From: Thermoplasmata archaeon
GTDB taxonomy: Archaea; Thermoplasmatota; Thermoplasmata; Thermoplasmatales; Thermoplasmataceae
Direction: 5' to 3'
Length of the DNA stretch: 64,000 bases
Assembly: GCA_021806295.1 (NCBI GenBank)
Contig: JAJZXS010000018.1
Span: 1 to 64,000 of the forward strand
A program made the translations under genes and the position numbers. The notes beneath the pieces were generated by a model. That model did no database searches. It worked only from the letters and a program-made list of their open reading frames with translations, and was not told where the DNA came from. Shown in pieces: positions 1,978 to 61,572 of this stretch (position 1 is the stretch's first letter; each line of letters starts with the position of its first letter).

Positions 1978-4506
1978 TTGGCTTTACAAACTATGAACGT
2001 GAAACACAGCACCATTGAAATAAATGGACGGAAACTCAAGTATTATCCACTTTCCCAGCTTGCCGACAAGTACGATGTTGATAATATGCCATATTCTTTT
2101 AAAATTTTGCTTGAAAATGTTTTAAGGAATTATGACGGCGTGGATATTGATGAAAGGTCAATAGATAACATCGCAAAAATGAAATCTGGATCAGAAATGG
2201 CATTTAAACCATCCAGGGTTGTTTTCCAAGATTATACCGGAGTTCCTATCCTAGTGGACCTTGCAGCCATGAGGGAATATTACCAGAAGATGAAAAAAAA
2301 CCCTGAAGAGGTGAATCCCGCCACGAAATCAGATCTGGTCATTGACCATTCCATAATAGTGGATTCATTCCGCGGCGATGAGCCCATTATTATCAATATG
2401 AAGGATGAGTTTTCAAGGAATGTAGAAAGATATGATTTCCTGAAATGGTCACAGCAATCCTTCAAGAATGTTAGGATAGTTCCGCCGGGACATGGCATAG
2501 TTCATCAGATCAATCTTGAATATTTATCCTCTGTGGCTGTGGTCGACAATGGAGAGATATTCCCGGAGAGCCTCATTGGTGCAGATTCACATACAACAAT
2601 GATAGGTGGCATAGGAGTACTGGGATGGGGAGTAGGTGGCCTTGAGGCAGAGGCTTCGATGCTCAATGAGCCGTACTTCATGACTGTCCCGGAGGTCATA
2701 GGAGTAAACCTTAAGGGGAAAATTCCCACAGGTGTAACGCCCACTGACGTTGTACTGTATATAACAAAAACGCTCCGCGCCAAGAATGTTGTTGGAAAAT
2801 TTGTTGAGTTCTATGGAAATCTCTCAGAATTGACAGCACAGGATCGGGCAACGATTTCAAATATGGCACCAGAATACGGGGCAACAATCGGATATTTCCC
2901 TGTGGACAGCGAAACACTGAAGTACCTGACAGGGACAGCCAGAGATGCAGGGTCTGTTGAGAAATACTTTAAAGAACAGGGATTATTCTATGATGGCCCG
3001 AAGAAATACCGTGAAACTGTGGATATAAATCTCTCTGAAATCAAAAGTGCCGTTGCCGGACCAAAAAATCCCGATGAGCTTATAAATATAGAGGATTTAA
3101 AGGAAAAAATCCATGACCTTATTAAAGATGGTAGTGATGGAAAGCTTGTGAAAAACGGGTCAGTTGTAATATCTGCAATTACCAGCTGTACAAACACTTC
3201 AGATCCCTTTGTACTACTGGGTGCCGGACTAATTGCAAAGAAGGCTGTAGAGCACAATATTGTGCCTGCACAGACTATAAAAACAAGTCTTGCACCCGGT
3301 TCCAAGGTGGTTACGGATTATCTGGAAAAGGCAGGCCTGATGAAGTATCTCAATAAAATCGGCTTCGAACTGGTAGGTTACGGGTGCACAACGTGCATAG
3401 GAAATGCCGGCCCGCTCATACCTGAAGTGCAGGACGATATCCTGAAAAATGGTGTAAAAACCGTCGCAGTACTCAGCGGAAACAGGAACTTTGAGGGTAG
3501 AATAAACCCGTATATAGCAGGGGCATTCCTTGCATCGCCGATGCTGGTTGTAATATTTGCACTGGCAGGGACTATGGACATAGATTTGACAAAGGACCCG
3601 GTAGGCATGGATCATGGAAAACCTGTATATCTTAAGGATCTGTGGCCAACTTCAGAGGAAATAAAAAAATACTTCCACCTTGCCATGGACCCTGAGACCT
3701 ATAAAAGGGAATACAGTAATGTGTTCAGCGGGGATTCAAACTGGGAGTCAATGAAATCAACTGGGGGTACCATATTTGACTTTAAGGATGATTCATCATA
3801 CATTAAAATGCCTCCATGGATGTATATGGAACCTGTCAGGGATGTGAAAAATGGGAGGATATTCGCCATATTTGGTGATAAAATTACAACAGACCATATT
3901 TCTCCTGCAGGGCCCATAGCAAGGGATTCGGTTGCAGGGAAATACCTCACATCACTGGGCGTCACTGAACTAAATACATTCGGTGCTCGCAGGGGGAACC
4001 ATGAAGTCATGCTCCGTGGTGGATTCTCGAATCCCAAAATAAGAAATCTAATGGTTGACCACGCCGGAGGCGACACCGTATATTATCCGGATGGAAAAGT
4101 AATGAGCTTCTACGATGCAGCCATGAAATATAAAGAAAATAATGTGCCTCTGGTCATATTTGCAGGGAAACAGTACGGTTCCGGAAGTTCCAGGGACTGG
4201 GCAGCAAAGGTAACATCACTTCTTGGTGTAAAAGCCGTAATAGCAGAAAGCTTTGAAAGAATTCACAGGAGCAACCTTGTAGACATGGGCATAATTCCGA
4301 TCCAGGTTGATAGCATGCCGTCACTGAAAGGGGATGAAACAGTAGACATAGAGGGGATCAATGATATATCAATAGAAAAAGAACTGAACATAAACATAAA
4401 CGGAAAACCCATAAAAGGTAAAGCCCTGATAAATACAAATGCAGAGCTCAATTACGTTAAAACCGGAAATATACTGAAATACATAGCCTCGTCCGGTAAA
4501 AAATAA
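1978..4506 (+). CDS. acnA: Aconitate hydratase (AcnA type)
   Basis: 842 aa; motifs GADSHTTMIGGIGVLGWGVGG, ITSCTNTSDP, GYGCTTCIGNAGPL, GSGSSRDWAAK. Start TTG 1978 or ATG 1993. Confidence 0.95.
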   Translation: MALQTMNVKHSTIEINGRKLKYYPLSQLADKYDVDNMPYSFKILLENVLRNYDGVDIDERSIDNIAKMKSGSEMAFKPSRVVFQDYTGVPILVDLAAMREYYQKMKKNPEEVNPATKSDLVIDHSIIVDSFRGDEPIIINMKDEFSRNVERYDFLKWSQQSFKNVRIVPPGHGIVHQINLEYLSSVAVVDNGEIFPESLIGADSHTTMIGGIGVLGWGVGGLEAEASMLNEPYFMTVPEVIGVNLKGKIPTGVTPTDVVLYITKTLRAKNVVGKFVEFYGNLSELTAQDRATISNMAPEYGATIGYFPVDSETLKYLTGTARDAGSVEKYFKEQGLFYDGPKKYRETVDINLSEIKSAVAGPKNPDELINIEDLKEKIHDLIKDGSDGKLVKNGSVVISAITSCTNTSDPFVLLGAGLIAKKAVEHNIVPAQTIKTSLAPGSKVVTDYLEKAGLMKYLNKIGFELVGYGCTTCIGNAGPLIPEVQDDILKNGVKTVAVLSGNRNFEGRINPYIAGAFLASPMLVVIFALAGTMDIDLTKDPVGMDHGKPVYLKDLWPTSEEIKKYFHLAMDPETYKREYSNVFSGDSNWESMKSTGGTIFDFKDDSSYIKMPPWMYMEPVRDVKNGRIFAIFGDKITTDHISPAGPIARDSVAGKYLTSLGVTELNTFGARRGNHEVMLRGGFSNPKIRNLMVDHAGGDTVYYPDGKVMSFYDAAMKYKENNVPLVIFAGKQYGSGSSRDWAAKVTSLLGVKAVIAESFERIHRSNLVDMGIIPIQVDSMPSLKGDETVDIEGINDISIEKELNININGKPIKGKALINTNAELNYVKTGNILKYIASSGKK

Positions 4507-9560: not shown

Positions 9561-9998
9561 TTAACTTGCCTCCCTTTTCCTCATATGCCTTCTCTTATAA
9601 TTATAGTAATACAGTACCTCCTCCCCTATGAAGAAGTAAGGCTTCAATGACCTTACTGTTTCATTAAACCTCTCTAATTTGCCATTGGTCTGTGGATAGT
9701 CTACCCCTGCTAATATATGTTTTATTCCATTGCTATTAAGGTATTCCTGGAACGCCATTGGTCCTGATAATGGATAATCATTCCTTATTCCTATTATCAG
9801 TTCCTCTGGATATTCATCTATTGCCTTTGTCTTCCTTACTCTTTTGTATAATTCTGTTTTATTGCAGTTGGTGTAATTGTAATAGATCTTATTGATATAA
9901 TTTGTACTTACACTGTATATTGCTACCAATTCAGCAGATAGTATTCCTTTCTTTTTCTGATTTATTATGTATTTTAATTTCTTATCGTTTAACTTCAC
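9561..9998 (-). pseudogene. rve-type (DDE integrase core) transposase with internal deletion
   Basis: N-terminal HTH part is joined directly to FQEYLNSNGIKHILAGVDYPQTNGKLERFNETVR...YYNYKRRH, so the region that should carry the first catalytic Asp residues is missing. Confidence 0.65.
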
Positions 9999-13740: not shown

Positions 13741-13836
13741 TATATTCCTAATATTGAATTACACTTAAATAGATTGTGTTTTATAACATAGCATAAGATA
13801 AATATAATAGGGAATAATGTTTAAATATCATAAAGT

Positions 13837-13868
13837 GATATCTATATTAGATATCAATAAAAGATATC
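13837..13868. promoter_or_regulatory. Putative operator: three GATATC palindromes at 13-bp spacing downstream of a TATA box
   Basis: TTTAAATAT at 13820-13828; GATATC at 13837-13842, 13850-13855 and 13863-13868; first two form the perfect inverted repeat GATATCTA-TAT-TAGATATC. Confidence 0.55.
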
Positions 13869-13879
13869 TGGTGATAAAA

Positions 13880-14104
13880 ATGTATGGAAGAAGATATTCA
13901 GGAAATAATGAATATGGTGAGAGATATGAAAGAGACTGCGAGAAACGATGGGAATATGGCAACATGGACTCCAGGAAAGGATGCAGGGGATCTGAAAGTG
14001 GGCAATATGGTTTCCATGAACATATGCACGAGCAAGGTGAGTGCCATAATGAAGAACGCCGCTGCAGGCATGAACAGCACCGTGGATGCCATGGTGGCAA
14101 TTAG
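13880..14104 (+). CDS. Small His/Cys-rich protein, possible metal-binding
   Basis: MYGRRYSGNNEYGERYERDCEKRWEYGNMDSRKGCRGSESGQYGFHEHMHEQGECHNEERRCRHEQHRGCHGGN; start ATG 13880 preceded by GGTGATAAAA. Confidence 0.5.
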   Translation: MYGRRYSGNNEYGERYERDCEKRWEYGNMDSRKGCRGSESGQYGFHEHMHEQGECHNEERRCRHEQHRGCHGGN

Positions 14105-14113
14105 GTGATTAAC

Positions 14114-14572
14114 ATGTTTGGACCAAAGGGGAGATACATGCATGGCGGAATGCACCATATGCATGGCATGCGTGGATTCGGACTTAAATACTGGATACTG
14201 GGAATAGCTTCTGAAAATGAAGTTACCGGTGCAGACATAGCAAACAGGATTGGCGAAATAACAAAGGGAAACTGGGTACCATCACCAGGAATAATATATC
14301 CTACTTTAACAGCTTTGTACAGTGAAAATTATGTCGAACTTGCAGAGAAAAATAATAAGAAATACTATAAAACCACTGAGGCTGGAAAAAAATTACTGGA
14401 TGATTCATACTTTCCCTGGGATGAAATATCAGGCAAAAAAAATGACCTTGATGATATCATAGTTCAGATGGAAAATTATTCACAGTATTTGCTAGATAAC
14501 CTTGAAAAGCTGACCGATGATGAAAAATCCAAAATAAAAAACATTATAAACAACCTCGGCAAAATAAATTAA
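14114..14572 (+). CDS. PadR-family transcriptional regulator with His/Met-rich N-terminal leader
   Basis: GLKYWILGIASENEVTGADIANRIGEITKGNWVPSPGIIYPTLTALYSENYVEL is a PadR winged helix; leader MFGPKGRYMHGGMHHMHGMRGFG; ATG 14114 follows GGTGATTAAC. Confidence 0.85.
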   Translation: MFGPKGRYMHGGMHHMHGMRGFGLKYWILGIASENEVTGADIANRIGEITKGNWVPSPGIIYPTLTALYSENYVELAEKNNKKYYKTTEAGKKLLDDSYFPWDEISGKKNDLDDIIVQMENYSQYLLDNLEKLTDDEKSKIKNIINNLGKIN

Positions 14573-61068: not shown

Positions 61069-61572
61069 TTATTTCCTTTTTAAATTTCTCTCTTTCGCAT
61101 AGTTAATTATATTTACTAGCATTTTGTTAATATTATCTATGCCTTCTTCATCTCCATTCTTTCTGAGATAGAAAGCCTGCCGTATTGTCTCTATGATAGG
61201 ATGACCTATTTCCCTTATCAACTCTTTCAGGACTTTATAATCCTCTATATCTGTAAATACATTTATATAGGGGAATTCACGGTCAATTGCATCAAAGATG
61301 GCCTGATCCCTGACCTCTTCATTTAGGTCCAGAACATTGCTTACAAATTTTTCCCCCTTCTCTGTAAGTGAATAATATTTCTTTCCTTTTCGTATATTAA
61401 ATGTAATAAAATTATCCGTCATAAGGCGGTTTAGTACAGGGATCAATGCGCCATTAGAAATGTTTTTTCCTGTTGCCGAATTATAAAGTTGCTTTGAGAG
61501 CCCATATCCTGTCATTTCTTTGAGGTTTAATATGTAGAGTATACGCAGGGAGTAATCATTCATATGAATCAA
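61069..61572 (-). CDS. PadR-family transcriptional regulator
   Basis: SLRILYILNLKEMTGYGLSKQLYNSATGKNISNGALIPVLNRLMTDNFITFNIRKGKKYYSLTEKGEKFV. Confidence 0.85.
   Translation of the reverse strand: MIHMNDYSLRILYILNLKEMTGYGLSKQLYNSATGKNISNGALIPVLNRLMTDNFITFNIRKGKKYYSLTEKGEKFVSNVLDLNEEVRDQAIFDAIDREFPYINVFTDIEDYKVLKELIREIGHPIIETIRQAFYLRKNGDEEGIDNINKMLVNIINYAKERNLKRK

Follow-up and report, generated by a model that had tools for sequence, protein, structure and literature searches.

Within the PadR family of winged-helix regulators, LmrR of L. lactis and PadR of B. subtilis are the characterized members used here for comparison, together with the small M. tuberculosis protein Rv3488, which binds metal. 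Known PadR operators are inverted ATGT/ACAT repeats whose halves lie about 8–10 nt apart (PMC3506622), and LmrR binds its own promoter, among others (PMC4534193). A second point of reference is provided by metallothioneins and SmtA-SmtB pairs, in which a small protein of the metal-binding type is found. Among archaeal systems, Ss-LrpB of Sulfolobus solfataricus belongs to the Lrp family, and MDR1 of Archaeoglobus fulgidus is a DtxR-type protein that heads a transporter operon and has several operators near the start of this, its own operon. MDR1 is metal-dependent and acts by letting basal factors bind while excluding RNA polymerase (PMC2995911).

We analysed a 64,000-nucleotide stretch of DNA from a member of the Thermoplasmatales (hereafter the window), in which a promoter with phased GATATC sites is followed by a small open reading frame rich in His and Cys and by a padR gene. 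The regulator of this cassette has the winged-helix domain of LmrR and B. subtilis PadR, and the best Foldseek match of its structure model is the B. subtilis PadR–DNA complex 5x11. The cassette differs from both systems in that its TATC-N7-GATA dyads overlap in a ladder of 13- or 14-bp steps, in that no exporter is linked to it and in the two-helix C-terminal region of its regulator. The structure of Rv3488 is also among the Foldseek matches, and NF053635, the model of the family to which Rv3488 belongs, matches the cassette PadR weakly (21.4 bits, far below the cut-off of 140). In repressing transcription at an archaeal promoter, the cassette PadR would resemble MDR1, but it is of the PadR type, has no linked transporter and has a metal response that is putative. 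Ss-LrpB offers a further archaeal comparison, from which the cassette differs in that its putative PadR half-sites are shared by neighbouring dyads. As in metallothionein and SmtA-SmtB systems, a small protein of the metal-binding type adjoins a would-be regulator; the 74-aa sequence, however, contains neither CxC nor CxxC motifs and has no homology to a known family, and the adjoining regulator is a PadR rather than an ArsR/SmtB protein. PadR autoregulation is a known kind of circuit, and the tiled ladder would be a new variant of it.

A GATATC ladder spans the cassette promoter

Inspection of the window bore out every promoter coordinate of the original prediction, which had placed three GATATC sites just 3' of a TATA box. 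The TATA box (TTTAAATAT, 13820..13828, + strand), for which TTTAWATA is kept at the same position in the genus, is followed by GATATC at 13837, 13850 and 13863, in exact 13-bp steps, and the first two of these sites form the perfect 8-bp-arm repeat GATATCTA-TAT-TAGATATC (13837–13855). A fourth copy that was absent from that account, AATATC, overlaps the TATA box and extends the register, and AATATC or an equivalent is found in most orthologues. The ladder thus comprises site 1 (13824..13829) and the conserved GATATC sites 2 (13837..13842), 3 (13850..13855) and 4 (13863..13868). Neighbouring hexamers pair as a TATC-N7-GATA palindrome, so that each hexamer is a half-site common to adjacent dyads. 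We infer that the three overlapping dyads (13826–13840, 13839–13853 and 13852–13866; span 13826..13866) form a PadR operator array, on the basis of dyad enrichment at PadR promoters outside the genus and of the sole perfect core dyad in the host genome.

Downstream of the ladder lies the ribosome-binding site of the small open reading frame (GGTGAT, 13870..13875, + strand), which is kept in the genus. Going by the usual archaeal TATA-to-start distance, transcription would start near 13850, within the ladder, and the array would probably occupy the classical position of an archaeal repressor, spanning the TATA box and the probable transcription start. The canonical PadR operator ATGT-N8-10-ACAT is absent, ACAT not occurring in 13815–13880; this operator is a trait of characterized PadR members and does not define the family.

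The ladder is conserved and accompanies padR

GATATC alone is slightly over-represented in the window (35 occurrences, 26.3 expected). The phased pair GATATC-N7-GATATC is found in the 1.47-Mb host assembly at the cassette promoter only, which also holds the single perfect TATCTA-N3-TAGATA core dyad of the host genome. Among promoters of the PadR subfamily, 23 of 28 contain at least two strict GATATC sites at 13- or 14-bp steps, compared to 0 of 2800 shuffled promoters, and looser ladders are present in 27 of 28, compared to 9.9% of shuffles; the 28 include many close relatives and do not represent 28 independent events, yet several genera and families are represented. Within the genus, pairwise identity is 98.9% for the hexamers, 77.2% for the spacers and 38.9% for the DNA just upstream.

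The original prediction had named absence of the phased sites from close relatives as grounds for its refutation, and the strict pair is present at the orthologous padR promoter in 10 of 10 genus members. Throughout the order, orthologues of this PadR have a ladder in front of them, with a step of 13 bp in most genomes and of 14 bp in Thermoplasma-like genomes and G116. Flanking genes vary within the genus while the array stays with padR. When 117 genomes of the order were scanned for triple ladders, almost all GATATC-type matches fell at padR promoters, including that of a more distant PadR in G094; a reversed-pattern control gave a few matches per 117 genomes. Ladder-like matches elsewhere (for example in G052 and at position 156963 of G100) were rejected as lying inside open reading frames or being imperfect. 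The perfect core dyad is confined to the padR promoter or promoters in nine of the ten genus genomes. To look for a wider regulon in the genus, the ten genomes were searched for strict pairs, for the core dyad and with a promoter model of 72 positions; these pattern searches, which could overlook weak sites, gave no convincing target beyond the padR promoter. Because 9 of 20 PadR promoters outside the genus carry a single TATC-N7-GATA dyad (0.23 expected), the dyad looks ancestral and tight tiling would be derived.

To our knowledge, few regulators of the Thermoplasmatales have been characterized. TATC-N7-GATA with 13- or 14-bp tiling provides a testable operator code for a PadR subfamily across this order, and the difference in step among genera (13 or 14 bp) offers a natural experiment on the fit of adjacent dimers along DNA.

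Several observations concern the surroundings of the ladders. The gene divergent from padR resembles, by eye, glutamate-1-semialdehyde aminomutase in six genus members (L005–L010) and is an aldo/keto reductase gene in G000 and G006. A triple GATATC array with 14-bp steps follows a radical-SAM-like gene and has no obvious gene downstream of it (L286, G023:C13:37467-37500). Ladder-like sites also occur beside another PadR gene that adjoins what by eye is a ChrB-like chromate-resistance gene (L274, G082:C23).

The regulator belongs to the PadR family

The downstream gene had been called a PadR regulator, an assignment that the Pfam model PF03551 confirms (51.7 bits, cut-off 27). Its most likely start is the ATG at 14114, behind its own ribosome-binding site GGTGAT (14104..14109, + strand), which gives a product of 152 aa (14114..14572, + strand); a GTG start at 14105 was rejected since it falls inside this site. 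The gene has an omega of 0.04–0.08. In the AlphaFold monomer model (pLDDT 78.0), a leader rich in His, Met and Gly (residues 1–20, pLDDT below 50) is predicted to be disordered and is followed by the winged helix and two C-terminal helices (112–128 and 135–149). With 152 aa and two such helices, the modelled protein does not appear to be of the PadR-s2 type (LmrR, about 110 aa, with a single C-terminal dimerisation helix of 20–30 aa), and its C-terminal region of about 55–60 residues would be shorter than that of PadR-s1 proteins (about 180 aa, with a C-terminal domain of 80–90 aa and several helices). Only the PadR model matches the protein, with no ArsR-type HTH, which places it outside the ArsR/SmtB family. 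Among the orthologues compared, no His/Cys ligand set in the leader is conserved in position, and the leader of G026, read from the ATG used, has zero His.

Elsewhere in the window, a second, distant PadR-family gene was identified at 61336–61548 (− strand; E 2.9e-5; open frame 168 aa), and an open reading frame at 9561–9998 (− strand) resembles, by eye, a transposase or integrase remnant.

A His/Cys-rich mini-protein is found in part of the genus

The small open reading frame (13880..14104, + strand) encodes a 74-aa, probably disordered protein with the 5 Cys and 7 His that had been reported for it and only 2 ILVAFWP residues. Its frame is under purifying selection (omega 0.12–0.68), and an overlapping 74-aa frame from 13884, open in several relatives, was rejected as being without selection. 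Searches of the protein against Pfam and NCBIfam gave zero matches. Orthologues were identified by sequence search in G006, G008 and G003 and positional equivalents in G005, G002 and G007. The mini-protein is thus present in seven of ten genus members; it evolves fast, ranges from 58 to 74 aa, is almost without hydrophobic residues and has 13–22% His plus Cys in all seven. The remaining three, G001, G004 and G009, use this start site for PadR itself, whose leader then begins MYGKR. The proposed pairing of mini-protein and PadR in close relatives therefore holds for seven genus members and gives way to a fused start in three.

In all 18 of 18 outgroup members, padR lies directly behind the ladder and the mini-protein is absent. 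Since the tree moreover requires no more than one change between the mini-protein and fused states among genus members, with branching within the genus unresolved, the simplest view is that the mini-protein was added to an older circuit at the level of the genus. Its absence from three genus members and from all outgroups also indicates that the core circuit does without it.

Metal-related genes lie near padR or a second ladder in a few distant relatives

Genus members have neither a metal gene nor an exporter linked to the cassette. In two other genera, padR is followed by a CDF gene: that of G027 (cation efflux, PF01545) lies directly downstream, and that of G064 is part of a same-strand run behind padR. 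In G105, which is probably T. volcanium, a second triple GATATC array with 14-bp steps (L232, G105:C1:540000-547000, 3303–3336) sits between a divergent ribosomal-protein-like gene and a NifX-like gene (PF02579) whose product ends HEHGMHEHQ. The core 20-mer of this array matches the padR operator of G102 at every position. The array is located upstream of the TATA box of the NifX-like gene, a position that could possibly also suit an activator. In the genus, NifX-like genes have no ladder in front of them. The two CDF neighbours and the T. volcanium NifX-like target are the sole leads to metal that are independent of amino acid composition.

Two further observations concern NifX-like sequences. 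The CDF protein of G027 (L211, 6744–7997) has a weak C-terminal PF02579 domain, and the NifX-like genes of four Thermoplasma-like genomes (L253, L254, L256 and L257) have a conserved (G/A)ATATCGRAATATCGATT before the TATA box, which is possibly another type of target.

More distant PadR genes of the order directly precede ABC transporter genes, which suggests drug-like ligands for their products. A search of the available literature on PadR with Ferroplasma, Thermoplasma or metals found nothing relevant. Kinship to I-plasma and Thermoplasma agrees with the metal-rich acid habitat that had been envisaged. The cytoplasm of this group is mildly acidic, a condition that would weaken binding of metal by His.

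Autoregulation is well supported and the signal is less certain

Judged from phylogenetic footprinting, negative autoregulation by PadR on the ladder is probable: PadR promoters of different genera retain the ladder, it accompanies PadR into new surroundings, and the host genome holds no second copy of it. The self-regulation sensed in the original prediction is well supported by these findings. PadR would bind as dimers to the TATC-N7-GATA palindromes, which overlap at 13-bp intervals, beginning at the TATA box and extending across the probable start. Once bound, the protein would keep the archaeal initiation complex from assembling and thereby silence its own operon; both dimeric binding and repression are putative. 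In a sub-branch of the genus, the same promoter would yield the disordered His/Cys-rich protein. A rise of the inducer, most likely a divalent metal or metal cofactor, would release PadR, and this release would lead to production of a chelating mini-protein and more PadR. An autoregulated cassette that most likely has such an inducer is the best explanation of the locus as a whole, and our confidence in it is evenly balanced. Taken separately, a metal or metal-cofactor signal for PadR is a tentative proposal, and the role of the mini-protein as a metal buffer is likewise conceivable but short of probable.

A chance origin of the phased sites, as a repeat or as a side effect of AT-rich promoter sequence, can be rejected with near certainty: while the genome is AT-rich and GATATC on its own is common in it (35 copies in the window, about 26 expected), shuffled promoters lack phased pairs, the host-genome pair is unique, the hexamers are conserved in the genus and the ladder recurs in several further genera. 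It also seems very unlikely that the ladder serves another regulator as its operator, with PadR merely a target. The ladder travels with padR through differing neighbourhoods and is otherwise near-absent from each genome, and related TATC-N7-GATA dyads mark promoters of other PadR genes, as autoregulation predicts; contact between PadR and the ladder is nonetheless deduced from sequence, and the T. volcanium array before the NifX-like gene indicates that the array is not strictly bound to padR. For the 74-aa frame, an unlikely alternative is that it lacks a protein function and that its translation, as a leader, serves to couple or dampen that of padR. The overlap of its stop codon TAG with the padR ribosome-binding site by one base would fit this role, as would its fast evolution, variable length and restriction to part of the genus, but purifying selection acts on the 74-aa frame and not on the overlapping open frame, and His/Cys richness is retained in all seven species.

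The alternative that bears on the signal accepts autorepression through the ladder and holds that PadR senses a drug or metabolite, as LmrR does, with the composition of the His/Met/Gly leader and the His/Cys mini-protein reflecting drift. This is a doubtful but substantial possibility. The ABC transporter genes directly behind distant PadRs, one of which (G011, L025) has the same TATC-N7-GATA dyads, the unconserved His positions of the leader and the lack of an adjoining metal gene in the genus all favour it; set against it are the CDF genes of G027 and G064, the NifX-like target of T. volcanium, the His plus Cys content that the seven mini-proteins keep despite fast evolution and the lack of a linked exporter in the genus. 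The originally proposed metal-sensing or metal-buffering cassette accordingly stands in part. CDF and NifX-like neighbours in a few distant relatives and the His/Cys composition speak for it, whereas leader His residues are unconserved in position and the cassette in the window has no efflux gene beside it. A metal cassette is plausible, with a role for metal that is circumstantial. The observation of the ladder is well conserved and self-regulation was correctly sensed, and the metal interpretation went beyond the evidence.

The lack of any other clear target in the genome raises the question of what purpose the regulator serves, to which a metal-buffering mini-protein would be one concrete answer. 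A speculative and rather improbable scenario is that the mini-protein budded off the His/Met-rich PadR tail by duplication or fission of the 5' end and became a separate metal buffer in one archaeal genus. A single promoter would then serve a circuit that comprises sensor, operator ladder and chelator and regulates the production of nothing but itself. The idea of a duplicated leader draws on the apparently similar starts of the mini-protein (MYGRRYSE), the fused PadRs (MYGKRYSE) and PadR (MFGPRG). G008 contains both a mini-protein version and a fused version (C46 and C74), the latter scoring the same as that of G004, and bin contamination (5%) likely explains their co-occurrence.
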